Shown here piece after piece: positions 51,593-64,000 of a stretch of DNA of 64,000 nucleotides. The DNA comes from Massilia mucilaginosa. Lineage in GTDB: Bacteria > Pseudomonadota > Gammaproteobacteria > Burkholderiales > Burkholderiaceae_D. Both the position numbers and the translations under genes were made by a program. The notes beneath the pieces are model-generated. The model ran no database searches. It was not told the origin of the DNA and saw only the letters and a program-made list of their open reading frames with translations. The stretch is taken from assembly GCF_011682145.1 (NCBI RefSeq), contig NZ_WHJH01000016.1, positions 1 through 64,000 on the forward strand. Reading direction: 5' to 3'. Position 1 is the stretch's first letter, and the number at the start of each line of letters is the position of its first letter.

Positions 51593-51782
51593 ACCGGCCT
51601 TCCTCAACAATGGCATTTTCCATGCCATGAGACGAACTATTGCGCAACAAAATGGGCATTGAGCCAGATCAAAGGTTGTTCAGAAAGAAGCACGTATAGT
51701 TATTTGTAGCAAGCGGGGCTCAACCAACCTTTGAGCGTTGTCAAACATTGTGCAACTTTCTTTGACCGGGAGAACGACGCGC

Positions 51783-53144
51783 ATGCAAGCCCGACTGCAC
51801 CTCCCGCTCTGGATCCACCCCTTCGACCACGTCAGCTCAGCCCTGTGCGCCAAGATCACGGCGGCACTGGAACAGGCCGGCTTGCAGCCGGATCCCGGCG
51901 GCGCCCGCCCGTCCGGCTTCGGCCTGGCCCTGGTCGACGGCGTCGACGCCGCCGTGCTGGAGCGGGTGCGCAGCCTGGCCGCCGGCGCCAGCGTGCTGGC
52001 CATCGCCGTCGGCGCGCATCCCCCGGCCACGGCCGACATGTGGGCCTTGCTCGAAGCCGGCGCTTTCGACGTGCTCAACTGGACCGACGGCGCCGGCGAC
52101 GCCGCCCGCATCCAGGCCCGGCTGGAGCGGCGCGACGCCCTGCAGCGCCTGGCCGACTCGCCCGACGTGCGCAGCACCCTGGTCGGCGCCAGCCAGGCCT
52201 GGCGCGCGCTGGTGCACAGCGTGGTCGAGGTGGCCGCCTTCACCGAGTCGCCGGTCCTGATCACCGGCGAGACCGGCACCGGCAAGGACCAGGTCGCGCA
52301 ACTGATCCACCGCCTCGGCGGACACGGCGACCTCGTCGTGCTCGACTGCACCACGCTCACGCCCGAACTGGCCGGCAGCGAACTGTTCGGCCATGAGCGC
52401 GGCGCGTTCACCGGGGCCGCGAATGCGCGCGACGGCGCCTTTGCGCTGGCCGATGGCGGCGTGCTGTTCCTCGACGAAGTGGGCGAACTGCCCTTGCCGC
52501 TGCAGGCGCAGCTTTTGCGCGCGCTGCAGGAGCACACCTATAAGCGGGTCGGCAGCAATACCTGGCAGCGCTCGCGCTTCCGGCTGGTGTGCGCCACCAA
52601 CCGCAGCCTGGAAGACGAGGTGGCGAACGGGCGCTTCCGGGCCGACCTGTACCACCGCATCGCCGCCTGGCGCTGCCGCACCCCGCCCCTGCGCGAACGC
52701 AGCGACGACGTGCTGCCGCTGGCGCAGCACTTCCTGGCGCTGCTGGCAGGTCCCGGCGCGGCCTGCGGATTCGACGCCGCCGTGCGCGAATACCTGCTGC
52801 TGCGCGAATACCCCGGCAATGTGCGCGAACTGCGCCAGACCGTGGCGCGCCTGTGGTACCGCCACAGCGGCCCCGGGCCGATCACCATCGGCGACCTGGC
52901 GCCCGACGAGCGCCCCGCGCGCGGCGCGCCCGCCAGCTGGCCCGATATCCGCTTCGAAAGCGCGATCCGCGCGGCGCTCGACTTGCGCATCGGCCTGGCG
53001 CGCATCAGCCAGGCCGCCGCCGACATCGCGATCCAGCTGGTGCTGGAGCAGGAGGGCGACAACAACCAGCGCGCCGCGCTGCGCCTGGGCGTGACCGACC
53101 GCGCCTTGCAGATCAGGAGGAAGGCATGGGCCGAGGCGCACTGA
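51783..53144 (+). CDS. Sigma-54-dependent transcriptional activator
   Basis: A 453-residue bacterial enhancer-binding protein. An N-terminal part (about 1-110) looks like a degenerate receiver (LALVDGVDAAVL, LLEAGAFDVL) without a clear phosphorylation site. The AAA+ domain has Walker A (GETGTGKD, about 162), the sigma-54 contact loop ERGAFTGAAN (about 205), Walker B (GGVLFLDEVGELP), and FRADLYHRI. The C-terminal helix-turn-helix (QRAALRLGVTDRALQIRRK) is short. GGGAGA precedes the ATG. No adjacent kinase; the target is unknown. It is convergent with the GNAT gene. Confidence 0.9.
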   Translation: MQARLHLPLWIHPFDHVSSALCAKITAALEQAGLQPDPGGARPSGFGLALVDGVDAAVLERVRSLAAGASVLAIAVGAHPPATADMWALLEAGAFDVLNWTDGAGDAARIQARLERRDALQRLADSPDVRSTLVGASQAWRALVHSVVEVAAFTESPVLITGETGTGKDQVAQLIHRLGGHGDLVVLDCTTLTPELAGSELFGHERGAFTGAANARDGAFALADGGVLFLDEVGELPLPLQAQLLRALQEHTYKRVGSNTWQRSRFRLVCATNRSLEDEVANGRFRADLYHRIAAWRCRTPPLRERSDDVLPLAQHFLALLAGPGAACGFDAAVREYLLLREYPGNVRELRQTVARLWYRHSGPGPITIGDLAPDERPARGAPASWPDIRFESAIRAALDLRIGLARISQAAADIAIQLVLEQEGDNNQRAALRLGVTDRALQIRRKAWAEAH

Positions 53145-53150
53145 CTTAGC

Positions 53151-53636
53151 TTAGTCGTTCGGGATCGGCTTGACCAGGATACTGGAAGCGGGCGCGAAGC
53201 CGTATCGCCGGTAAAGATCGGCGGCGAACCGGTTGTCGTTGAACACATTGAGCATGATCCTGCGCGCCCCGAGCGCGCGCGCGCGCTGTTCGAGCAGACG
53301 CATGGCCGCGCTGCCCAAGCCCTGGCCGCGATACTCCGGCCAGATCACCCAATCGTACAGGTACACATAGGGGTCCAGCGCCGCCTGGCGCAGTTCGAAC
53401 CAGAGCGCGCCAACGTCCGCACCGGCCGCCTCGATGGCGTAGAGATGCTGCCCGCTCGCCTCCGGCTCCGCATCCGCGCAGATCTTGAGAAATGCAGCCT
53501 CGGCACTGGCACGGGCGGCTTGCGCGCTGCTGCCGTAGGCACGCGACTGTGCCTCGGCAAGCAGGGGGATCGCGCGCACGGCGTAGGCATCGAAACTGGC
53601 GCCCGACATCGGACGCAGGACGACTGTCGCCGTCAT
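53151..53636 (-). CDS. GNAT-family acetyltransferase
   Basis: A 161-residue N-acetyltransferase. The acetyl-CoA loop is VIWPEYRGQGLGSAAMRLLE (R/Q-x-x-G-x-G/A), followed by NVFNDNRFAADLYRRYGF. It is the last gene of the minus-strand cluster and overlaps the SagB-like gene by four bases. It could acetylate the cluster's product or be a resistance enzyme. Confidence 0.88.
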   Translation of the reverse strand: MTATVVLRPMSGASFDAYAVRAIPLLAEAQSRAYGSSAQAARASAEAAFLKICADAEPEASGQHLYAIEAAGADVGALWFELRQAALDPYVYLYDWVIWPEYRGQGLGSAAMRLLEQRARALGARRIMLNVFNDNRFAADLYRRYGFAPASSILVKPIPND

Positions 53637-54751
53637 CCCGGCACTACCGGCGAGCTGCTGTTGGGTTCAATATGGAGTGGATCCATCACGGTGGGAATAG
53701 TCGAACGGTTGCCCAGGGCGACAGTATAGACGTGGCTTTGGGTCAGCTGCGCACACTTGGTCAAGCGCACCGCCTGGCGGTCATCGATGGCGCAGGTCGG
53801 CGTACAGGCCAGGCCGCGCGCGGTCGCCGCCAGCAGGATGTTTTGCGCGATGTGCCCCGCTTCCAGCAAGACCACACGGTAGCCGGTTGGATGCGGATAC
53901 TTCCACATCGTCCGCTCGAAATGCGCCACCAGCACCACCAGCGCGGCCGTGTGCTCGAACCAGCGCTGCCCCGCCAGCACATCCGAGACCGACAGAAGTT
54001 CCTGATCGTTCACCAGCCCGAGCGAGTGCTCGCTGGCGCTGTAATGATAGACCCCGGGCGCCAGCCCGTCGACGCGGCGGGCATACACATACGCCTCGTA
54101 GGGATTGCGTCCGCCGCCGGAGGGGGTCAGCTTGAAGGGCAGTTGTTCCGGCGATTGCGCAAACGGCTTGACGAAGCCGGTGATGCCAAGCCCGGCGAAC
54201 AGGCATTCGGACAGATGATCGAGCCGCAGCGGCTGGTCCGAGAAGCCGCGATAGCTGCGCCGCCTGCACATGAGCGAGAGCGCGTCCGACTCCAGCTCGG
54301 GGCGCGGCAAGCTGGTGATTGTCGCGTAGCCCTGATTATCCTGGTGCAGCGCGACCGCATCGGTCGTGATCGATTTCTCGACCAGGCGCGAGGCGCTCTG
54401 GGCGGGATCCATGTACTCGGTGCCGCGAATCGAAAAATGATAGTACCCGGCCACCGCCCCCCAGGCGAAGCGCTCTTCGTATTCCTGGTCCTGCACGGCC
54501 GCCGGGCTGTGCAGGCTGACCAGCAAGGATGCCGATGTCAACGAGGCGATTTCGCGCCCGAGCGCCGCATGCGCCGCCTCGGGCAATGCACTGTACAGGG
54601 CGTAGGGATGACTCCACTGGTCGCAGGAGGCGAGTACCCAGCGGCCCAGCTCGGACAGCGCGATCTCGGTTTTGGCGACGTAGTTTTCGGCAATGAGGGC
54701 AGCGTTCGAATATCGCAATATGATGCTGCGTGCGCGTCTGATCATCAACAT
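53633..54751 (-). CDS. SagB/ThcOx-family flavin oxidase
   Basis: A 372-residue nitroreductase-fold oxidase of the SagB type. Diagnostic segments are MCRRRSYRGFSDQPLRLDHLSECL, TPSGGGRNPYEAYVYA, and LEAGHIAQNILLAATARGLACTP. In thiazole/oxazole-modified peptides, SagB-type enzymes dehydrogenate azolines to azoles; other members act on non-peptide substrates. No YcaO cyclodehydratase is found in the window. N-terminal 80 residues may bind a leader-type peptide or be structural. Coupled to the GNAT gene. Confidence 0.88.
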   Translation of the reverse strand: MLMIRRARSIILRYSNAALIAENYVAKTEIALSELGRWVLASCDQWSHPYALYSALPEAAHAALGREIASLTSASLLVSLHSPAAVQDQEYEERFAWGAVAGYYHFSIRGTEYMDPAQSASRLVEKSITTDAVALHQDNQGYATITSLPRPELESDALSLMCRRRSYRGFSDQPLRLDHLSECLFAGLGITGFVKPFAQSPEQLPFKLTPSGGGRNPYEAYVYARRVDGLAPGVYHYSASEHSLGLVNDQELLSVSDVLAGQRWFEHTAALVVLVAHFERTMWKYPHPTGYRVVLLEAGHIAQNILLAATARGLACTPTCAIDDRQAVRLTKCAQLTQSHVYTVALGNRSTIPTVMDPLHIEPNSSSPVVPG

Positions 54752-54829
54752 TTCCTTCTGGCGGGAACGATGAATCGATGTGCTGCAAGAGTCGCAACAC
54801 CTGGAAATGGGTAAGGGCTGGCGCGGCCG

Positions 54830-55348
54830 TCAGCGGCGCGGGTCCGGGTACAAGCCGTTCCCGGAAAACGTGGAAAAAGGCGATGGCGGCGCCTGGCCGG
54901 GCGCGGCCGCATTGACGGGACGCGCGCCCGCCTCTTGCTGGGCGATCAGGGCATTGTATGGATCGGCGACGCGAATCAGGCGGCCGGTATAGGCATCGAG
55001 CACGGCGAGAAAGCGGACAGGAATCAAGCTTATCCGTGGCGGAGTGCAGCGGAAATCGAACATGACGTGCACTTCTTCGGCAATCGAAGGCATGCACTGG
55101 ACGGCGATGAACATATCCTTCGCCTGCATGCGGCGCGCAAAACACTGCTGAACCTCGGGGTGCAGCAGTGCGCTCAGTACAAAGCGGTCGCCGCTGGTGC
55201 CGCCGTAGTTTTTGACGAGTTCGGAAAATTCATGCACGGCGTTGCGGATGGCGGCGCTCGTCTCTTCGGTGATCGGCGCTTCGATCGGGGCGGAGGATGT
55301 GTCGGGATCGGGGGTTTTCTTGTCTGTCGGGTCTTTTGGATTTGGCAT
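54830..55348 (-). CDS. Hypothetical protein between SagB and the HHPSLA gene
   Basis: A 172-residue soluble protein, not recognised. N-terminal 30 residues are polar and Pro/Thr-rich (KDPTDKKTPDPDTSSAP), then a helical region EFSELVKNYGGTSGDRF, a segment LLHPEVQQCFARRMQAKD, beta strands (VHVMFDFRCTPPRISLIPV), and a Pro-rich tail ending GNGLYPDPRR. Three cysteines. Lies 67 bp after the HHPSLA gene on the same strand. It may be a precursor-binding or carrier protein of the cluster (inference). Confidence 0.6.
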   Translation of the reverse strand: MPNPKDPTDKKTPDPDTSSAPIEAPITEETSAAIRNAVHEFSELVKNYGGTSGDRFVLSALLHPEVQQCFARRMQAKDMFIAVQCMPSIAEEVHVMFDFRCTPPRISLIPVRFLAVLDAYTGRLIRVADPYNALIAQQEAGARPVNAAAPGQAPPSPFSTFSGNGLYPDPRR

Positions 55349-55415
55349 GAAACTGACTCCTGAAAAAGAGACAATCGGCCCGCCCCGGCAGCGGCGGGCG
55401 TGCTGGATGATCGGA

Positions 55416-55994
55416 TCAGTACACGATGCCGGTCAGCGATGGATGATGGGAGGCCAGCGATGGATGATGTGCTGCCACCGATGGATGATGGGTTGCCAGC
55501 GACGGATGATGCACGGCCAGCGATGGATGATGCAGCGCCACGGATGGATGGTGCGTCGCCAGCGAAGGATGGTGCACTGCCACGGCCTGGGATGGGTGGT
55601 GCGCAGCCAGCGACGGATGATGCAGCGCCACCGCTTGGGATGGATCTTGCACGGCCAGTGACGGATGATGCACGGCCAGTGACGGATGATGCACCGCCAG
55701 CGACGGATGATGCGCCGCCACGGATGGATGGTGGGTCGCCAGCGAAGGATGGTGCACGGCTGCTGCCTGAGATGGGTGGTGCGCAGCCAGCGACGGATGA
55801 TGCGCCGCAGCGGCCTGGAATGGATCTTGCGGCGCCAGCGACGGATGGTGCGCCGCCAGCGATGGATGGTGCAGCGCCAGCGATGGGTGATGGACTGCCA
55901 GCGATGGATGATGGACTGCCAGCGATGGGTGATGTACAGCTAACGAAGGATGGTGCGAAGCAAAAGCGGGATGGTGTTGAGCAAAGTCTGCCAT
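55416..55994 (-). CDS. HHPSLA tandem-repeat protein
   Basis: A 192-residue protein that is nearly all repeats. After MADFAQ come 25 units: 23 start HHP (mostly HHPSLAV, HHPSLAA, HHPSLAT, with HHPSVAA and HHPSQAAAV variants) and two start QDP (QDPFQAAAA and QDPSQAVAL). It ends SLTGIVY. The product has no Cys and no Lys or Arg, is very His-rich, and should be disordered or a polyproline-like rod. No signal peptide. The ATG at 55994 follows CAGGAAATC. With a SagB-type oxidase nearby, each repeat's Ser could be modified; alternatively it chelates metal. No homologue is recognised. Confidence 0.75.
   Translation of the reverse strand: MADFAQHHPAFASHHPSLAVHHPSLAVHHPSLAVHHPSLALHHPSLAAHHPSLAPQDPFQAAAAHHPSLAAHHPSQAAAVHHPSLATHHPSVAAHHPSLAVHHPSLAVHHPSLAVQDPSQAVALHHPSLAAHHPSQAVAVHHPSLATHHPSVALHHPSLAVHHPSLATHHPSVAAHHPSLASHHPSLTGIVY
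55434..55976 (-). repeat. Tandem 21-bp coding repeats
   Basis: About 25 imperfect units, mostly 21 bp and occasionally 27 bp, encode the HHPSLAx copies. The nucleotide variants differ at wobble positions, so the peptide repeat is selected rather than the DNA being merely slipped. Not a CRISPR: no unique spacers. Confidence 0.85.
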
Positions 55995-56061
55995 GATGAT
56001 TTCCTGTCGAAGAGATGAGTCGTTCTGAAACGAGCCGCCAGCCTGTTGGTAATCAATGCAG

Positions 56062-56187
56062 CTATTCGAAGCTGATCTCCATCATCATGATTTTGATCAA
56101 CTGCGCAGCGCAACGCCATTCTTCCACGCTTGATTGGTCGAGGTACCTGTCTGAATAGTGAGCTTGATCTCTTCGGCGCCAGATCGC
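56062..56187 (-). other. Open frame after the amidohydrolase stop
   Basis: Directly after the amidohydrolase TGA, the same frame stays open for 41 codons to a TAG at 56062 with coding-like composition (middle: SVEEWRCAAQLIKIM). It has no ATG with a ribosome site at a useful position (a GTG occurs within). It may be readthrough extension, a small peptide, or a remnant. Confidence 0.25.
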
Positions 56188-56913
56188 TCAGTGCCCGATC
56201 AGGCGCAGCAGATTCTGTCCCAGCACCAGCGCCTCGTCGTCCGGCGCCAGGCCGAGCATGCCGATCTTGGCCAGCTCCACGCCCGGATGCAGCCACGGCC
56301 CGTCCGACCCGAACAGCAGCTTGTGCGGGCCGGCGCGCCGCACCGCCATCTCCAGCAGATCGAAGCGGCGCACGCCGGCGCTGTCGGCGAAGATATTGCG
56401 GTGGCGCGCCAGATGGTCCACCAGCGCCAGCTGCGCGCTCCAGTCGTCGGCGAAGCTGCCCAGGTGCGGCAGGATGAAGTTCACGTCCGGGAACTGGCTG
56501 GCCAGCAGTTCGGCCACCGCCACTTCGCCCGTCACGTCGTACAGCACCGGCAGGCGAAAGAAGCGCGCCGTCTCGCACACCTCGCGCGAGATGCGGGCGT
56601 CGTGCCGGTGCAGCTTGATGCCCACGAAACCGTACTCCTCGACGGCCACCCGCACCAGCGCGCGCACGCGCCCGCGGTCGCGCTGCGCATGCACGAACGC
56701 GAAGCCGTAGAAGCGGCCCGGATCGGCCGCCACGATGCGCGCCACGCTGCGGTTGGCCTGCGCGTAGTCGGAGTGGAACGCGGCCAGCAGCACGGTGCGC
56801 GCAATGCCGGCCTGGCGCGCCCGCGCCAGGTAGCGTTCGAGGCCGGCGTCGCTGTCCCACGGGCCGGAAAAGCCATCGCCCTCGCCCGCGTGGCAATGGC
56901 AATCGATGATCAT
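56188..56913 (-). CDS. Amidohydrolase family protein
   Basis: A 241-residue metal-dependent hydrolase of the amidohydrolase-2 type. The N-terminal MIIDCHCHAGEGDGF carries the HxH metal site, FILPHLGSF and LLFGSDGPWLHPG the later ligands. It is shorter than many family members, but all motifs are in order. It could hydrolyse an amide or decarboxylate the cluster's product. Start overlaps the glycine-rich paralogue's stop by four bases (ATGA), hence translationally coupled. Confidence 0.85.
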   Translation of the reverse strand: MIIDCHCHAGEGDGFSGPWDSDAGLERYLARARQAGIARTVLLAAFHSDYAQANRSVARIVAADPGRFYGFAFVHAQRDRGRVRALVRVAVEEYGFVGIKLHRHDARISREVCETARFFRLPVLYDVTGEVAVAELLASQFPDVNFILPHLGSFADDWSAQLALVDHLARHRNIFADSAGVRRFDLLEMAVRRAGPHKLLFGSDGPWLHPGVELAKIGMLGLAPDDEALVLGQNLLRLIGH

Positions 56914-57563
56914 AGATCAAGCACGATCCGGCCGCGTCCCTGGCGGCGCCAGGTGCCGCTGTTGGCGCCGCTGTTGGCGCCGCCGGCCAGGCCGGGCTGG
57001 CGCATACGCGGCAGGTGGCAGCGCAGCGCCGCGTCGAGCGCCTGGCGCGCTGCGCGCTGCGGGTCCATGCCCTGCCCCGCCATGCCGGCTTGCTGGGCGG
57101 CGGTGCCGGCGATGCGCACGAAGCGGCGCGCCATTTCCAGCTCGCGCTCCTCGCCATCGAGACCGGCCGCTTCCATCTCCAGTGCCTTGGCGACGGCGTT
57201 CCCGAGCGCGCCGCCAATCGCCGTGCCCACAACCGGAATCGGAATGAAGGAACCGAGCGCTTTGCCCACGAACGGCAGCGCGGTCTTGGCCAGGCCCTTG
57301 AGCACGCCGCCGAGCGGCTTGGCGACCTTGCCGATGAAGGAACCGACCTTCTTCACGCCCTTCCAGATCCCCTTGAACATCTTGCCGAGGAACTGCTCCA
57401 GTTCTTCCTCGCTGGCGACCGACATCAACTCCATCGCCAGCGCGATTTCCTCCTGTTCCCCGAAGGGGCCGGGTGCTTCGAACTCCATCACTTCCAGTTC
57501 GCCCGACGCAGCCTGGCGGCATTTGGCGCATCCACATCCTGATCCTGATCCTGATCCTTGCAT
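56910..57563 (-). CDS. Gly-rich-core family protein, copy 1
   Basis: A 217-residue protein of a family with two further copies at 62721 and 63510. The start is MQGSGSGSGCGCAKC, encoded by a GATCCT microsatellite, with four cysteines. An acidic helix follows (EEIALAMELMSVASEEELEQ), then a long hydrophobic and Gly-rich core (GKVAKPLGGVLKGLAKTALP, GKALGSFIPIPVVGTAIGG), an ARRFVRIAG helix, and a tail GTWRRQGRGRIVLDL. The core looks membrane-active or amyloid-like. AAGGAG precedes the start at 57563. Function unknown. Confidence 0.6.
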   Translation of the reverse strand: MQGSGSGSGCGCAKCRQAASGELEVMEFEAPGPFGEQEEIALAMELMSVASEEELEQFLGKMFKGIWKGVKKVGSFIGKVAKPLGGVLKGLAKTALPFVGKALGSFIPIPVVGTAIGGALGNAVAKALEMEAAGLDGEERELEMARRFVRIAGTAAQQAGMAGQGMDPQRAARQALDAALRCHLPRMRQPGLAGGANSGANSGTWRRQGRGRIVLDL

Positions 57564-57589
57564 GATGATCTCCTTCGGTTGGTAAATCG

Positions 57590-58216
57590 CTAGCCCCAGA
57601 ACTCGCCGAGCAGTTCGGCCTCCAGTTCCTTGCGCTGGTTGGTCAGCACGCCAGGCGGCTCGCCCGGTTTGCGTTTTCTGACATCCATCTTCGTGTGCAG
57701 GTCCTTCTCGGTCCTGCGCCGCGCGGCAGCCGACGGCGCCGGTGCCACGAATACCCGGTGCTTGCCCACGTCGAGTCCAAGCATGGTGGCGCACAGCAGA
57801 TGCTGGCGCAGGCGCCGCCCCACGTCCTCGCTCTGGCCGCTGTAGGCGCGCTTGCCCGCCGGCCCATCGAACTCGATCAGGTACAGGCCAGCGAGCTTCG
57901 CTCCCACCCTGGCTACCGCGTCGCGCAGCGGACCGTAGGACTGGTACGTTGGCGCAGCGCTCATCTTCGCCAGCGCGGGCGCGATGCTGGCCGGCTGCTC
58001 GTCCTGCGGTTCGTCGTCCTCGACCGGGTAAGGGTAAGGATAGGGTTCCGGCCACGGCGCCAGCACCGGATAGCGCCAGCCGCCCCACGCCGGCCGGCGC
58101 GGCCTGGACGGCCCGCTACGGCCCGGCGACGGCCGTGGCCCGCGCCCCGCTCCAGCGCGCCGCCCGCCCCGCTCTTCTTCCATCTCGAATGCCACCATTT
58201 CAAATTCCGTATTCAT
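57590..58216 (-). CDS. GIY-YIG-like domain protein
   Basis: A 208-residue protein. The first 85 residues are low-complexity (EMEEERGGRRAGAGRG, PEPYPYPYP, acidic DDEPQDEQPAS), a disordered leader or linker. A C-terminal domain (about 115-180) has AGLYLIEFDG...KRAYSGQSEDVGRRLRQHL, which is the layout of GIY-YIG nucleases, though the canonical GIY...YIG is altered. May be a nuclease or a repurposed fold. AAGGAGGG precedes the ATG at 58216; 3' end overlaps nothing, but its start overlaps the PLP gene stop by 17 bp. Confidence 0.5.
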   Translation of the reverse strand: MNTEFEMVAFEMEEERGGRRAGAGRGPRPSPGRSGPSRPRRPAWGGWRYPVLAPWPEPYPYPYPVEDDEPQDEQPASIAPALAKMSAAPTYQSYGPLRDAVARVGAKLAGLYLIEFDGPAGKRAYSGQSEDVGRRLRQHLLCATMLGLDVGKHRVFVAPAPSAAARRRTEKDLHTKMDVRKRKPGEPPGVLTNQRKELEAELLGEFWG

Positions 58217-59273
58217 ATTCCCTCCTTGTCTGCATGCCTGATGGCGCCTGTGCGCGCAGGCAGGCCGCCAGCAGCGCCAGTGCGCGTTCGATCTCGTCCG
58301 GCGCATGGCGCGCCGTGACGATGAAACTGAGCGCAGCCTGCGCGCCCGAGCGCTGCAGCACCGCGTCGACCCCGGCGTGGCGCAGGCAGGCGTGCAGCGC
58401 CACGCCGTCGACGCCGCGCCGCGGCGCCAGCGTCTGCACCGGAAACGCACTCGCATGCAGCGCAATGCCATGCCTGGCCGCGCCGCCGCGCCACTGGGCC
58501 ACGCGGCGCCACAAGCGCGCGCGCAGGCGCTCGCCGTGCGCGCGGTTGATGCGCAGCGCCGCCAGCGCGGCCCGGATCGACGCCACCGGCGGCGGGCTGG
58601 AATGCACGCGCGCCTGGCTCGATTGCCCGAAACGGCGCACCAGCTCCGCGCTGGCGCACAGCACCGCCAGCGGCGCGCCGAACGCTTTCGAGAGCGAACT
58701 GCCGGCCACCACGTGCGGCCCGTCGACCCCGTGCCGCCGCAGCGAACCGCCGCCGCCCTCGCCGAACAGGCCGATGGCCTGGGTGTCGTCGAGCACCAGC
58801 CAGCCGCCCGCCTCCCGCATCAAGGCGGCGTAGGCGGCCAGCGGCGGCGGCCGTGGCGCGCCGGGCACGTGGCCGTCGGCCAGGATCAGCGGGCGCCGTC
58901 CCTGCCTGCGCGCCGCCTGCGCGAGCCGGCGCGCGCCGTCCACATCGGCATGCCCGAACACCGTCAGCGGCGTGCCGCGTGCCGCCGCGCGTTCGGCGCC
59001 GGCGCGCGCGATCGGGTAGCTGGCGCCATCGACCAGGATCGCCAGCGGCTCGCGCGCCAGCAGCTCGAACAGGTCGCAGAACAGGTGCAGGGTCGATGGC
59101 AGCAGGGTCGCCGCCTGGCAGCCGCACAGCAGCGCCAGCGCTTGCGCCAGTTGCGCGGCGCCGGGCGGCTCCCTGCTGGCCGCCGGCCGCCCCAGCGTCA
59201 GCGCATCCCAGCCTCCCAGGTCCGCGCTGGGATGGCGCATGCCGAGATACAGGGCGCTGGAAAAGTCGAGCAT
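58200..59273 (-). CDS. PLP-dependent alpha-oxoamine-synthase-like enzyme
   Basis: A 357-residue fold-type-I aminotransferase-superfamily protein closest to BioF/KBL/SPT. Pyridoxal-phosphate lysine K196 sits in AGSSLSKAFGAP, and D162/D163 in LDDTQAIGLFG bind the ring nitrogen. The normal DDAHxxG reads DDTQA here, so the usual His is Gln: condensation chemistry may be changed. Small for the family (usually about 390). Might make an amino ketone or a lipid-like group for the cluster product. Start lies 3 bp after the next gene's stop. Confidence 0.75.
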   Translation of the reverse strand: MLDFSSALYLGMRHPSADLGGWDALTLGRPAASREPPGAAQLAQALALLCGCQAATLLPSTLHLFCDLFELLAREPLAILVDGASYPIARAGAERAAARGTPLTVFGHADVDGARRLAQAARRQGRRPLILADGHVPGAPRPPPLAAYAALMREAGGWLVLDDTQAIGLFGEGGGGSLRRHGVDGPHVVAGSSLSKAFGAPLAVLCASAELVRRFGQSSQARVHSSPPPVASIRAALAALRINRAHGERLRARLWRRVAQWRGGAARHGIALHASAFPVQTLAPRRGVDGVALHACLRHAGVDAVLQRSGAQAALSFIVTARHAPDEIERALALLAACLRAQAPSGMQTRREYEYGI

Positions 59274-59276
59274 GGC

Positions 59277-61385
59277 CTAGGCCATCCGCGCTTGCTGCTC
59301 GAGGCGCTTGCGCAGCAGGATCGAGGGCAAGGTGCCTTCCGCCTTGGGATCGCGCGCGTCCACCGTCAGATCGACGCCGGTGGCGGCGCGGTAGGCGTGG
59401 ATGTAGCCCTGGATCTGCGGACGCCAGAAGCGCGCCCAGTTGAAGGCCTGGGTCGGCTCGTAGATGTCGCTCCAGGCGCCGTAGCGCACCGACAGCAGCA
59501 CCTGTTCGCCGAACATGGCCAGGCTGCGGAAGTGCATCACGCTCGTATCGGACCATCCCTGCAGCTTTTTCATGGCGTCGACCCGGTCCATCCACGGTTC
59601 CGGATAGGCGACCATGATGCGGGTCGGCAGGAACTCGCGGAACTCGGGGCGCGCCAGCATCCACTGCTGCATCAGCATTTCGATGCGCGCCGTCGAGGGC
59701 AGGTCGCCGAACTGGTTGTGCGCCCCCTGCGACAGGATCAGGTGCACTTCTTTCAGACCGTTCAAGACCGGGAAGGCGTCGGCCTTGACGGTGGTGTCGT
59801 CATCCTGGCGGTAGAACGCGGTGCACAGGCGCAGCAGGTAGTGGAACGCTTCGAGGAATTTCGAGCGCGTGTCGGCCGGGCGGAAATGCTGGACCGCCTT
59901 GCCGTCGAGCCGCACGCCGTAGTGGTGGTCGTACTCGTAATTGCGCCGCACCACGGTGAGGCGATGCTGTTCGTCCTGCGTGTAGCCCCAGATCAGGTTA
60001 TTCAAGGGCCGCAGCGGATCGATTTCGAGGTTCGCCAGCGGATCGTCGCGGCCCAGCGCGCGCACGTTCTGGAAGCGCTGGGTGATCGCGTTCATGGTCT
60101 GCACCAGCATGCCCTCCTCGTGCCAGTAAGACCAGATCAGCTCCAGCAGGCAGGGATTGGCCAGCTTTTGCTGGACGATGCCGAAGCACAGATCGGCTTC
60201 GCCCTCGATCCCGCGCAGCAGGTGGATCGGCACGTCGGGCAATTTGCGCCGGATGATCGCCAGGTACGGCAGCACCTTGGTGCCGTCCACCGTGGTCTCC
60301 AGGTAGTCGGCGTTGAAGGTGGTTTCCAGGTCGCGCGTGGCCGGAATGTCGCGCCGGTCGAGGTAGGCCTGGTCTTCGGCCGGATTGAACATGTTCGGCT
60401 GGCTCAGGACCCCGCAGTTGACCATCACGAACGCTTCGGTCGCCACCTTCAGCACGCGGTAGGCTTCCGAATCGTTGAAGGGCAGCGCGCGGCGCTGGCG
60501 CAGCTGCTCGAACAGCTGGCTCTTGGCCTCGAACGCGGGGCCGCGGTTGGCCGGGGTGCAGAACAGCGCATCCATGAAGTTCAGGTAGTTCGTAAACGAC
60601 ATCGCATCGGTGCTGTTGCGGATCAGGGTCCACAGCGGCAGGTCGTCGGTCGGTTCGGTCTCGGTGCGCGTCATCGACACGCCGATATTGCCCGAGATCG
60701 GGCTCGGCGTGCGCTCGTCGGCCACAAAGCCCTGGCGGATGCCGATCATGGCCGGCGCGGCCAGTGGCGCCATGTTGATGCCCGGCGCCAGCGCGGCGGC
60801 CGAGGGCCGGCGCTCGAATGCCAGCACCGCCTCGAACTGCTGCGGCCCGGCGTGGCGCACCACGCGCGAGAGCACGTAGGGATCATCCTCGCGCGCGATC
60901 CAGCCCGGCGTGGGCAGCACCCGCACATGCGGCCTGAGGTCGGACTGGTTGCCGGAAAAGCGGATGGTCGCCACCACCCGGTCCGCCACCCGCGCCACGC
61001 TGCAGGCATTGGCCTGGCAGTCGACGGTTTCGTAACTGAGTTCGGCGCGCAGTTCCAGCGCCAGCTGGAAGCAGACCACGGCGCGGCAGCCGCCGTCGAC
61101 CTTGACGCAGCGCGGCTCGGTCAGCGGATAGTGTTCGTACACCACCACGTAGCTGCCCGGCGCCAGGTTGGCGACCGTGGCCTCGCCGGCGCTGCCGGTG
61201 AGCGCGCTCGCTTCGAGCTGCTCGTACGACGGCGTCCAGCGCGCCGCCTCGAAGCTGTCGATGCCCTCCGCGTGGCGGTACACGCTGATCGCGCCGTTCG
61301 ATACCGGCGCGCCGGTCTGGGCCTCGTGCACGGTCACCTCGAGCGACCCGCTACGGGCTTGCTTCAGATTGTTCTTGCTGCTCAT
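59277..61385 (-). CDS. Large protein with carboxypeptidase-regulatory-like N-terminus
   Basis: A 702-residue protein. Residues about 10-105 are a transthyretin/SpaA-like beta sandwich (SLEVTVHEAQTGAPVSNGAI, ATVANLAPGSYVVVYEHYPL). The remaining 600 residues are unassigned, with conserved-looking LELIWSYWHEEGMLVQTMNA, DPLRPLNNLIWGYTQDEQHR and EYDHHYGVRL. It has no signal peptide. In the same cluster as a gluzincin-like protein; could be a scaffold or effector body. Starts 10 bp after the downstream-strand neighbour at 61396. Confidence 0.55.
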   Translation of the reverse strand: MSSKNNLKQARSGSLEVTVHEAQTGAPVSNGAISVYRHAEGIDSFEAARWTPSYEQLEASALTGSAGEATVANLAPGSYVVVYEHYPLTEPRCVKVDGGCRAVVCFQLALELRAELSYETVDCQANACSVARVADRVVATIRFSGNQSDLRPHVRVLPTPGWIAREDDPYVLSRVVRHAGPQQFEAVLAFERRPSAAALAPGINMAPLAAPAMIGIRQGFVADERTPSPISGNIGVSMTRTETEPTDDLPLWTLIRNSTDAMSFTNYLNFMDALFCTPANRGPAFEAKSQLFEQLRQRRALPFNDSEAYRVLKVATEAFVMVNCGVLSQPNMFNPAEDQAYLDRRDIPATRDLETTFNADYLETTVDGTKVLPYLAIIRRKLPDVPIHLLRGIEGEADLCFGIVQQKLANPCLLELIWSYWHEEGMLVQTMNAITQRFQNVRALGRDDPLANLEIDPLRPLNNLIWGYTQDEQHRLTVVRRNYEYDHHYGVRLDGKAVQHFRPADTRSKFLEAFHYLLRLCTAFYRQDDDTTVKADAFPVLNGLKEVHLILSQGAHNQFGDLPSTARIEMLMQQWMLARPEFREFLPTRIMVAYPEPWMDRVDAMKKLQGWSDTSVMHFRSLAMFGEQVLLSVRYGAWSDIYEPTQAFNWARFWRPQIQGYIHAYRAATGVDLTVDARDPKAEGTLPSILLRKRLEQQARMA

Positions 61386-61395
61386 GTCATTCTCC

Positions 61396-62715
61396 TCAGT
61401 GGAAAGTCAAAGGTGCCCGGGGAAGCGCCGGCGCTTGCGCCTCCAGCGAGGCGCACAGGAAGCTGGTGTCGAGCGTGCTGCGCAGCGCCCAGTGGGTCAG
61501 CAGTTTGGCCAGCAGGACGTTTTCGTCTTCCGGCCCGACCAGGCCGTCGGCGCGCGCCTGCCCCAGCACCGCGAACACCAGCGATGGCGGGGCGCGGTAC
61601 ATCTGCGCGGGCGCCTTCTCCCAGCGCCGGTACAGCGACACCAGCAGCGCCGGCTGGCGCCCGGCCACGTCGAGTACCTCGGGCAGGGTCTTGCCGCGCA
61701 GCGCCGCCGGCTTGTGCCGCACCAGCAGCTGGACAAACGCCGGCATGGCGCGCCGCAGCCGCCCCAGGAGATCGACCGTCTCCGGCGCCAGGGTCGCGCT
61801 CGGGTAGTAGTCGTGCCACACCGTGGCCAGGCGCTCCCACTGCGGATGCGGGTACAGGGCCTGCCCCATCGCGCAACTGAGCATCACGCGGATCCACGGA
61901 ATCGGATGCGGGTCGTCGGGACTGAGGCGAAACACGAACACGCGCGGCAGGCTGACCACCCCGATCAGGCCCAGGGTCGAGACCACGCCGACCCGCGCCA
62001 CCGACCAGAAGTCGGCCACGATTTCGGAAATCCAGCGCTCCCACCACTGCCACGTTTCGCGCTGGGCCGGGTCGCTCTGCTGCATCGCCTGCAGTTGCGG
62101 GCGCAGCGAGTTGACCAGGTCGAGCAGGGCCGCGCCCTGGTGCCCGACCTCGTGGATCAGCGAGGACGCGATGCCGCTGCCGATCATGCGTTCGCGCGGC
62201 ACCCGCACCACCGCCACCGGGTTCTCGCCGCCGCCCGGCAGGCGGGTGCGCGCGCGCCGGATCGCCGCGCCCGGCCCCCGGTCCAGGTAGCAGACCACGG
62301 GCGGCATGCGGTAGTAGCCGCCCGGCAGCGCCAGGGCGTCGGCCGCGACCGCGTCGAGGCCGGACAGCCAGACCCCGTTTTCGTGCTCGCTGCGCTGGGT
62401 GATGACGTCGTTGAACAGATCGAACTGGGTGAGCGTGGCATTGAACTTCAGGCGCAGGAAGGTGAAGCGGCGCTGCGCCTCGGCCGCGCTGGCGCTCGCT
62501 TGCGCGCCGGCCAGCCAGTGCTGGAAGGCCGCCACCAGCGCCTGCAGTTCGCGCCGTCCCGTGACCAGGTAGCGCTCGAGCGCCGACTGGGCCGACGGCA
62601 GCAGCGCGGCGGCCGGCACCATGGGCTCGATCAGGGCAAAGGGACGGACCCGCGCCAGCCTGGTTTGCAGGGAACGCGCTTCCTGTTCGAGCAGCGACGC
62701 GGCATACGGGCTCAT
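61396..62715 (-). CDS. Gluzincin-like HExxH protein
   Basis: A 439-residue soluble protein with SSLIHEVGHQGAALLDLVN: H188-E189-x-x-H192 is a zinc-peptidase motif. About 40 residues later WERWISEIVADFW gives a third Glu ligand, as in gluzincins. N-terminal 120 residues are helical; the C-terminal half has RRWEKAPAQMYR and RALGQA-like helices of unknown type. No signal peptide. It may process the cluster's peptide products. ATG at 62715, five bp after the paralogue's stop. Confidence 0.7.
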   Translation of the reverse strand: MSPYAASLLEQEARSLQTRLARVRPFALIEPMVPAAALLPSAQSALERYLVTGRRELQALVAAFQHWLAGAQASASAAEAQRRFTFLRLKFNATLTQFDLFNDVITQRSEHENGVWLSGLDAVAADALALPGGYYRMPPVVCYLDRGPGAAIRRARTRLPGGGENPVAVVRVPRERMIGSGIASSLIHEVGHQGAALLDLVNSLRPQLQAMQQSDPAQRETWQWWERWISEIVADFWSVARVGVVSTLGLIGVVSLPRVFVFRLSPDDPHPIPWIRVMLSCAMGQALYPHPQWERLATVWHDYYPSATLAPETVDLLGRLRRAMPAFVQLLVRHKPAALRGKTLPEVLDVAGRQPALLVSLYRRWEKAPAQMYRAPPSLVFAVLGQARADGLVGPEDENVLLAKLLTHWALRSTLDTSFLCASLEAQAPALPRAPLTFH

Positions 62716-62720
62716 GGCGG

Positions 62721-63425
62721 TCAGGCGCCGTAGATGACGATCTTGTTGCCCTGGCGGCTCCAGCGTCCGCTGGCGCCCCGCCCGCCGCCCGCACCCATGC
62801 CGCCGCCCTGCTGCGCCATGCCGCCAGCGCCGCAACTGGCGCAGCCGCCGCCGGAGGCGCCGCGTTTGAGCAGGCCCGGTGCGTGCTGGCGCGCCGCCGC
62901 CATGGCCGCATTCTGGGCGATCGCGCGCGGGTCGCCCGAGCCGGGTGCCTGCGAGGCCTTCTGCACCGTGTCGGCGGCCAGGCGCACGAACTGGCGCGCG
63001 CCTTCGTACTCGCGGTCGTCGCCGCTCATCTCCGCTTCGAGGCCAAGCGCGCCGCCGGCCGCCGAAGCCAGTCCGCTGCCGATCTTGGCGCCCAGCGGGC
63101 CGCCGAAGTAGCCGCCGATGGCGCCGCCGGCCAGCGGCAGCGCTTTTTTGGCCACGCCTTTGAGCACGCCGCCGACGGCCTGCCCGACCGGCGAGCGGAT
63201 CACGCGGCCGGCGGTGGCGCCGACCTTGCGAATGAAGTCGCCCAGGAACTGGTCGAGCTCCGCTTCGCTGTTCACGTTCAGCAGTTCCTGCGCGTATTCG
63301 GCTTCCTGCTGTTCGTTCAGACTGGATTCGCCGCTCCACTCGCCCTGGCCGAATTCGAACTGTTCGCCCTCGAAGCTGGAGGTTTCCTGGCCATATTCCA
63401 TTGTCGTGCGGTCGATGTCATGCAT
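62721..63425 (-). CDS. Gly-rich-core family protein, copy 2
   Basis: A 234-residue member of the same family as the genes at 56910 and 63510. Acidic, aromatic-rich N-terminus (ETSSFEGEQFEFGQGEW), then AQELLNVNSEAELDQFLGDF, then SPVGQAVGGVLKGVAKKALP, PLAGGAIGGYFGGPLG, then ARQFVRLAADTVQKAS. The C-terminal 60 residues hold a GGGCASCGAGG cysteine pair and end GRWSRQGNKIVIYGA. Start at 63425 after GAGGAG. No signal peptide. Unknown function. Confidence 0.65.
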   Translation of the reverse strand: MHDIDRTTMEYGQETSSFEGEQFEFGQGEWSGESSLNEQQEAEYAQELLNVNSEAELDQFLGDFIRKVGATAGRVIRSPVGQAVGGVLKGVAKKALPLAGGAIGGYFGGPLGAKIGSGLASAAGGALGLEAEMSGDDREYEGARQFVRLAADTVQKASQAPGSGDPRAIAQNAAMAAARQHAPGLLKRGASGGGCASCGAGGMAQQGGGMGAGGGRGASGRWSRQGNKIVIYGA

Positions 63426-63509
63426 GATGCGCTCCTCTAGAAAAATGAAACAACAAGGTGAAACAACGAAGTAAAACAACACAGTGCCCGGATGGACAAT
63501 CGGTCCGGA

Positions 63510-64000
63510 TCAGCAATCGTGAAGAATCAGTTGGCCCGCCCGGCGGGTCCAGCGGCCCTGCGTGGCCGGCCGCGCGTGCACATGCGGCAGCAGGCCCGGT
63601 GCGTACTGGCGCGCGGCCGCTTGCACGGCGGCGCGCGCGGACTGCGGCGTCGCGCTGCCGGCATTGCCCGCGTGGCGCGCGGCTTCGTCGGCCAGGCGCA
63701 CCAGCTGGCGCGCCAGGACGAATTCCTTGTCTTCGGCGCTCAGGCCTTCGAGTTCGAGGCCGAACATGCGCGCACCGAGGTTGATGCTCACCGTCTTTGC
63801 GCTGGCGCCGGACACAGGGCGGCGCTGCGGAGACAGGATCGGCCGCACGGCGCGCAGCAGTTCGGTGACCAGCAAGGGCCCCATCGGCGAACGGGCCACG
63901 CGCGCACCGAGCACGCCGGCGCCGGCAATCGCCCGGCCCAGCACGCGCCTCAGGTCGGCCGGTTCGGCCGCTTCGAGCAGTTCGGCGGCCAGCGCCAGGT
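63510..64000 (-). CDS. Gly-rich-core family protein, copy 3 (partial)
   Basis: Third member of the family, continuing beyond the right edge (5' end missing). Visible part: LALAAELLEAAEPADLRRVL, ARSPMGPLLVTELLRAV, LARQLVRLADEAARHAG, AARQYAPGLLPHVHARP, and a tail GRWTRRAGQLILHDC with a terminal Cys. The Gly-rich core is much reduced compared with copies 1 and 2. Confidence 0.6.
   Translation of the reverse strand, partial: LALAAELLEAAEPADLRRVLGRAIAGAGVLGARVARSPMGPLLVTELLRAVRPILSPQRRPVSGASAKTVSINLGARMFGLELEGLSAEDKEFVLARQLVRLADEAARHAGNAGSATPQSARAAVQAAARQYAPGLLPHVHARPATQGRWTRRAGQLILHDC

Follow-up and report, generated by a model that had tools for sequence, protein, structure and literature searches.

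The first 64,000 nucleotides of contig NZ_WHJH01000016.1 from Massilia mucilaginosa (assembly GCF_011682145.1, forward strand; hereafter the window) run into a conserved minus-strand operon whose gene set has the appearance of a weapon or lysis system not described before. The operon comprises eight genes (positions 56188-64112, i.e. reaching just beyond the window edge), and it owes this look to a switch of its own, to two protein families without a match among curated families, and to a gene slot in which domains of enzyme types that cut cell wall, protein or DNA are exchanged. The two families, which lack significant matches to curated families, structures or defence models, are encoded side by side across several phyla. 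That they are kept with the same neighbours and mostly with the same regulatory signature suggests selection for function. Four further genes that adjoin the operon in the window are a lineage-specific neighbour and not part of the conserved system.

A conserved eight-gene operon beside a lineage-specific unit

Gene calls placed twelve consecutive genes on the minus strand from 53151 to ~64112, as claimed in an earlier note on this DNA, and reproduced the tight spacing described there (gaps of -17, -4, -4, 3, 5, 10, 26, 67, 78, 84 and 193 bp). Extension past position 64,000 revealed that the twelfth gene (63510 to ~64112) crosses the window edge and that the contig, 128,938 bases in length, goes on; genes beyond the window were predicted with our own codon-usage caller, so their start sites are uncertain. 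The earlier note took the twelve genes for a single cluster and proposed co-occurrence across genomes as a check. This analysis upheld the cluster for eight members, which are strongly linked elsewhere, and refuted it for the other four, which are not.

The large core protein of the operon (g9) was searched in 195 genomes of the same bacterial family and found in 24 of them, representing 5 of 44 genera. Neighbourhoods were taken from 19 of the 23 other g9-containing genomes and from our own, giving 20 loci, two of which are cut by contig ends. All 18 untruncated loci kept the order Gly-Gly-HExxH-g9-PLP-GIY-Gly3-amidohydrolase, where Gly denotes proteins with a glycine-rich core, PLP a pyridoxal phosphate enzyme and GIY a GIY-YIG-like protein; this count includes some partial matches, and L046 has Gly2-like genes at both of the upstream Gly positions. 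Thresholds in most counts given here and below are chosen values, without a held-out test.

The remaining four genes (53151-55994), encoding a HHPSLA-repeat protein, a 172-aa protein, a SagB-type dehydrogenase and a GNAT acetyltransferase, lie between the amidohydrolase gene and a convergent gene for a sigma-54 activator. Of the 20 same-family loci, only L002, L029 and L031 contain them, all from the window's genus; SagB (at E 1e-40) and a strong match to the 172-aa protein were each detected in 3/195 family genomes, with a fourth match to the latter (E 2.8e-4, internal stops) being discounted. In 12 of the 14 untruncated same-family loci with the activator but without the unit, amidohydrolase and activator matches end no more than ~75 bp apart, the distance in the other two (L032 and L043) being ~0.6-0.8 kb. 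The G+C content of the four genes is 63.7% vs 70.1% for the part of the eight-gene block within the window. We reject a single twelve-gene system because the four genes are rare and occupy a gap between amidohydrolase and activator that is short in most other loci. The SagB/HHPSLA unit is a lineage-specific neighbour of the conserved operon.

Beyond the family, a core-profile search of 398 Pseudomonadota genomes returned four matches, our own included; the distribution is therefore patchy. Among 84,980 species genomes scanned, 204 related stretches were identified, the best 80 of which were combined with eight other loci into a set of 88. By taking the best 80 of 204, this sample leans to close kin (many Oxalobacteraceae); many of its distant loci are metagenome-assembled genomes, and its counts refer to loci, not independent events. 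The core protein has relatives as far away as Nitrospirota, Acidobacteriota, Planctomycetota and Bacteroidota. The closest named ones are from Massilia aquatica, M. rubra, M. atriviolacea and M. frigida, and carriers include Janthinobacterium, Rugamonas, Duganella, Pseudoduganella, Variovorax, Polaromonas, Nitrosomonas, Nitrospira and methanotrophs, as well as Microvirga, Acidobacteria, Rokubacteria, a Gemmataceae, Bacteroidota, Anaerolineae and Calditrichia.

In the 67 loci with full flanks, Gly genes and the HExxH gene are found upstream of g9 without exception, and an amidohydrolase (60/67) and a Gly gene (50/67) downstream. The PLP gene is present in at least 57 of the 67, a lower bound since some were masked by overlapping open frames (L056 and L057 do have a PLP gene). 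Apart from the block, the activator and the slot genes, no neighbouring family was seen to recur beyond a few genera, the widest occurring in at most eight groups, mainly Oxalobacteraceae. In most carriers seen the operon is chromosomal, in a few it resides on large plasmids (four plasmid records for g9 and five for the HExxH protein, the fifth being distant; Ensifer, Rhizobium and Paraburkholderia). A phage element was rejected, as g9 had no match in phages or viral contigs and the HExxH protein none in viral contigs. The tree of the core protein intermixes some groups, with Microvirga next to Polaromonas/Variovorax and Nitrosomonas next to Methylococcaceae; as bins may be impure, we do not claim this as proof of horizontal spread.

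Constant proteins and a variable slot

All genes of the operon are on the minus strand. Three of them encode related Gly-core proteins, in agreement with the earlier note: one profile matches all three (E 2e-90, 6e-71 and 8e-25) and, at E 0.01, no other protein of the 7.7-Mb genome, two of the three being rows of the profile itself. Most loci have two to three such Gly-zipper-family proteins. The first operon gene encodes Gly1 (63510..64000, on to ~64112 outside the window; profile A7, E 7.8e-25), a small Gly-zipper-family protein of 200 aa whose GTG start was picked by its ribosome-binding site. Gly2 (62721..63425), assigned to the same family by profile match and alignment, starts with MHDxDRT, continues with an acidic-aromatic segment (EFE-type) and a hydrophobic core rich in Gly and Ala, and ends in GxWxRxG, a C-terminus of Gly proteins that is invariant in 24/24 aligned rows. 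Gly3 (56910..57563; profile match and motif count) has a CxCxxC motif at its N-terminus. In a phylum sample of 299 genomes, strong Gly matches (E <1e-20) were confined to three (our own, G439 and G256), each of them a genome that contains g9 as well; eight further genomes gave weak matches (best E 1.1e-7).

The HExxH protein (g10; 61396..62715), recognized as such in the earlier note, has its motif and a downstream ExxxD conserved to at least 97% in 82 rows (H188, E189, H192, E231 and D235). HExxH followed by ExxAD is the gluzincin pattern, and by this motif, with a glutamate downstream as candidate ligand, the protein is gluzincin-like. Searches of Pfam, NCBIfam, PHROGs, PADLOC and PDB gave no significant match for it. 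Its gene was found in the same 24/195 genomes as g9, the copy in G067 containing an internal stop.

The core protein g9 (59277..61385) is built of two parts, a variable N-terminal part (residues ~1-235) that weakly resembles transthyretin (TTR)/prealbumin and a conserved core of ~460 aa. Mean identity to relatives is 29% in the former vs 72% in the latter (85 and 87 relatives, respectively). The TTR-like character proposed in the earlier note stands in part: the N-terminal part has a weak CarboxypepD_reg match (E 0.0011) that stays below the Pfam cut-off, and of 12 relatives that were scanned, five gave weak TTR/prealbumin-like matches (best E 4.7e-5). The core, rich in conserved E, D and H, likewise had no significant match in the five databases named above; a weak PT-TG match appeared in 5 of 30 core rows (best E 0.03).

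The two enzymes with family assignments are a PLP enzyme (58200..59273) and, as the last gene product of the block, an Amidohydrolase-2 family protein (56188..56913; Pfam E 1.9e-17). Both were named in the earlier note and both exceed their Pfam cut-offs, the former that of Aminotran_1_2; the scan covered the window genes other than Gly1 and the HHPSLA-repeat protein. The PLP enzyme is alpha-oxoamine-synthase-like and BioF-like but far under the bioF cut-off, hence not BioF. It retains both K196, the PLP lysine, and Q165 in 74/74 rows; oxoamine synthases have a His where this enzyme has the Gln.

Between g9 and the amidohydrolase lies a gene whose product varies from locus to locus. In the window it is a GIY-YIG-like protein with an acidic-aromatic N-terminus (57590..58216), an assignment by motif that had also been made in the earlier note and that holds better for relatives than for the window protein itself (Pfam E 0.059, under the cut-off, vs a best E of 1.4e-5 for slot proteins of relatives). 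A census of 102 slot proteins from 71 loci (Pfam at E 0.01), which left out Gly proteins of up to 300 aa, the PLP enzyme and 17 loci without a called amidohydrolase, recorded PG_binding_1 (23), GIY-YIG (16), PG_binding_3 (13), Amidase_2 (10), M20 (8), OmpA (6), VanY (5), Trypsin_2 (5), Trypsin (4), NlpC/P60 (2), Extensin-like (2) and PT-VENN (2), with muramidase, HNH and three others as singletons. Judged by these domain matches, the slot holds exchangeable toxin-type domains at a fixed place. A GIY-YIG-like motif (loose pattern) occurs in 46/71 loci, the window slot having GIY-YIG only, and in 12/71 loci it shares one chain with a Gly domain. One 794-aa chain (L107) combines PG_binding_1 and Amidase_2, with a GIY-like motif and a Gly-family stretch between them. 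M20-type peptidases recur beside the amidohydrolase in nitrifiers and others (slots of L128, L107, L094 and L110).

The N-terminal features of the Gly proteins reappear in some of these slot proteins. Two or more EFE-type triplets were counted in 83/94 Gly2-type and 26/67 Gly3-type proteins, 11/54 slot and 7/37 GIY proteins, vs 1/745 products of flanking genes; CxCxxC was present in 16/67 Gly3-type and 2/54 slot proteins vs 0/745. A signal-peptide-like start, assessed by a crude hydrophobicity test, was seen in none of the 54 slot and 37 GIY proteins vs 107/745 flanking gene products.

Candidate sigma-54 switch

The convergent activator gene (51738..53144, plus strand; an alternative ATG start at 51783 is possible), which the earlier note had not listed, encodes AAA+ and helix-turn-helix domains and matches the PADLOC RtcR/PspF-type model (7.9e-79). 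It belongs to the eight-gene system: a relative was found in 23/26 loci, two of the three misses being contigs that end early, and it is convergent with the operon in 65/67 full-flank loci.

The operon promoter lies outside the window. Before Gly1, a perfect -24/-12 element (TGGCAC-N5-TTGCA) maps to contig positions 64187-64202, and elements scoring at least 9 of 11 precede the operon in 69/78 loci vs 46/732 upstream regions of flanking genes. Near matches within the window are at chance level (5 found vs 4.93 expected), as are matches at two mismatches in L002; so short a motif is therefore meaningful only through position and conservation. Upstream of the promoter are two palindromes, CGAARN4YTTCG (contig 64245-64258 and 64287-64300, outside the window), 42 bp apart. 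Pairs spaced 41-43 bp start to start occur in 69/77 loci vs 22/732 controls, and of the 70 pairs across all loci that have no more than one mismatch, 67 lie <500 bp from the first gene. Since the control genes flank the same loci and some of them have the promoter region in common with the operon, their counts are if anything too high.

An exact palindrome pair is present in 11/195 family genomes, in nine at this operon and in two elsewhere (G162:C14:66284-66338 and G052:C28:295704-295760, both in genomes without a g9 match); the remaining 15 family genomes with the cluster have none. Since the 7.7-Mb genome of M. mucilaginosa contains a single exact pair, the activator probably serves this operon alone, with the search covering exact sites only. 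We regard the palindrome pairs as candidate activator sites and the operon as putatively sigma-54-dependent with a pathway-specific activator. The regulatory signature offers a cheap handle for genome mining and a clean route to the inducing signal.

A distant variant was noticed on a plasmid of Paraburkholderia sp. PGU19 (L173, 5352-14814), which encodes EFE-type proteins, a distant HExxH protein, an M20-like gene product and a close amidohydrolase. The locus has no g9 match, and neither a palindrome pair nor an activator relative was found within 16.7 kb. This variant suggests that the operon is part of a larger superfamily.

Possible roles of the operon and its neighbour

We tentatively read the conserved unit as a sigma-54-switched modular effector or lysis system, at somewhat below even confidence. 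The activator would bind the palindromes and fire the operon as one burst; the Gly-core proteins would act on membranes and the slot enzymes would cut cell wall, nucleic acid or protein, with the acidic-aromatic and CxCxxC N-termini marking cargo that the HExxH and PLP proteins might mature or load. One of two alternatives in the earlier note, that the locus delivers effector-like proteins, suits the eight-gene block, whose slot has exchangeable peptidoglycan-acting, nuclease-like and protease domains. A fuller version, in which an undescribed cross-phylum delivery system under its dedicated sigma-54 switch would use the Gly, HExxH and core proteins as loading and exit apparatus, the N-termini as address and the TTR-like end to recognise the target, seems unlikely to us. 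If true, the effector reading would add a new way for soil, freshwater and nitrifying bacteria to attack rivals or to lyse.

Several observations weigh against an effector or lysis role. Most slot proteins are devoid of the shared N-termini (43/54 without two or more EFE-type triplets, 52/54 without CxCxxC), so the proposed cargo address is far from general. No small gene was seen beside each cargo type in the 16 loci read, with open reading frames <50 aa uncalled; OmpA and M20 slot proteins are no obvious toxins; the PLP enzyme and the amidohydrolase are atypical of effector systems; and the regulator, with its single exact operator pair, is apparently single-target. Lastly, no secretion machine recurs beside the locus, exporters other than those considered below not having been searched genome-wide.

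Among known systems, polymorphic toxins as portrayed in parts of Zhang et al. 2012 (PMC3482391) likewise join constant parts to interchangeable domains of nuclease, peptidase and wall-acting type, at times within one chain. In contrast, no cargo-tracking immunity gene was seen in the 16 loci read, the Pfam matches of the slot proteins include no known N-terminal trafficking domain (two weak PT-VENN pre-toxin matches only), and what stays constant is an operon in which unmatched families accompany a PLP enzyme and an amidohydrolase. The operon thus bears some likeness to such systems in its working; as it does not clearly show their defining features, we do not file it there. Anti-phage defence was rejected: of ten proteins compared with PADLOC only the AAA+ activator matched strongly, two other matches being weak (E 0.001 and 0.005). 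The glycine-zipper bacteriocins CdzC/CdzD also comprise several small Gly-zipper proteins from one operon; unlike there, no exporter recurs here. Open-licence full texts, to which the search was confined (subscription papers and preprints lying outside), yielded no description of the gene set. A term look-up with guessed locus-tag ranges found no expression data for the carrier P. phymatum in the portions of two articles covered (PMC5979394, PMC5748707).

Programmed self-lysis or wall remodelling, in which holin-like Gly-core proteins would open the inner membrane and slot hydrolases then the wall, releasing DNA or goods, is an unlikely account. It fits the lack of signal-peptide-like starts in slot proteins (by the crude test above), the amidase, VanY, NlpC/P60 and muramidase domains among them, the lack of an exporter that recurs in the neighbourhood and the one exact operator pair in the genome. 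However, GIY-YIG, HNH and trypsin domains would not lyse walls, nor would slots with GIY-YIG only, as in the window, and a set of four enzyme-like proteins besides two to three Gly proteins exceeds the needs of lysis.

Less probable still is an effector depot delivered by a contractile machine encoded elsewhere, a type VI secretion system (T6SS) or an extracellular contractile injection system (eCIS). The T6SS protein VipB was found in 24/24 cluster genomes of the family vs 72/171 others, an association that is confounded by kinship, as all six same-genus genomes without the cluster also have VipB. Outside the family sample it was detected in just 13 of 33 carriers (many of them incomplete bins), and the single-contig carrier G439 has neither VipB nor phage sheath; a T6SS as obligate exporter was therefore rejected. 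A phage-type sheath was identified in 14/34 genomes above cut-off and in 19/34 at E 0.001, with no match in G439 and G519, which argues against a contractile sheath (eCIS or Photorhabdus virulence cassette, PVC) in every carrier. The window's own genome has two VipB matches (C11 and C44) and two above-cut-off sheath-family matches on C11. Effector loci of eCIS/PVC type contain OmpA, PG-binding and metallopeptidase-type genes. Such genes are also found here, but no sheath recurs beside the locus. In favour of a depot, OmpA and peptidoglycan-binding domains are mentioned for PVC-delivered toxins in a portion of PMC3482391, a GIY-YIG gene downstream of vgrG is described for one Janthinobacterium T6SS in a portion of PMC8356804, and a weak TssG match (Pfam, E 0.0024) was obtained for one HExxH relative out of 29. 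T6SS glycine-zipper effectors such as Tde1, as outlined in part of PMC10240207, are alike in pairing a Gly-zipper-type membrane segment with a nuclease-type domain; unlike for these, VipB was not found in 20/33 carriers outside the family sample.

That the Gly proteins self-assemble into a protein body or compartment, with slot enzymes as cargo sorted by their N-termini, we consider improbable. The N-terminal features common to Gly proteins and some slot enzymes and the invariant GxWxRxG end would suit such a body, but no shell family is among the Pfam and NCBIfam matches.

The least likely account, and the main idea of the earlier note, is a biosynthetic cluster akin to those for ribosomally synthesized and post-translationally modified peptides, with Gly-core or HHPSLA precursors and PLP, SagB and GNAT tailoring enzymes: although SagB, GNAT and repeat protein are adjacent here and kept together in two relatives, SagB (E 1e-40) is missing in 192/195 family genomes, 21 of which keep g9, and is thus not co-conserved with the block (3/195 vs 24/195), its relatives have other neighbours in two records, and those of the twelve genes that were scanned gave no cyclodehydratase match. 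The making and modifying of a repeat peptide could apply only to the four-gene unit, outside the conserved system (3/195 genomes; 3/18 untruncated loci).

The members of this unit, all on the minus strand, were largely as the earlier note had described them. The HHPSLA tandem-repeat protein (55416..55994), identified by repeat counts, contains 22 HHPS units, vs 21 and 27 in two relatives, and its length varies among three close species (190, 192 and 216 aa); in the 193-bp gap ahead of its gene, no element of sigma-54 type was noticed. The 172-aa protein (54830..55348), the one gene product of the twelve that had been left unnamed, gave no significant match in family searches. The GNAT acetyltransferase (53151..53636; Acetyltransf_1, E 3.1e-16) exceeds its Pfam cut-off. 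So does the SagB-type dehydrogenase (53633..54751), which also passes the NCBIfam model of SagB/ThcOx peptide dehydrogenases (TIGR03605; 108.6 bits, cut-off 78.4) but is confined to the four-gene unit; against TIGR04511 it scores 148.3 bits, under the cut-off of 240. A SagB relative with 38% identity is encoded on a Sinorhizobium medicae plasmid (L171, 4983-6101), where it adjoins genes for a 3-dehydroquinate synthase II, a hydroxylase and a phosphopantetheinyl transferase, i.e. a different biosynthetic setting.

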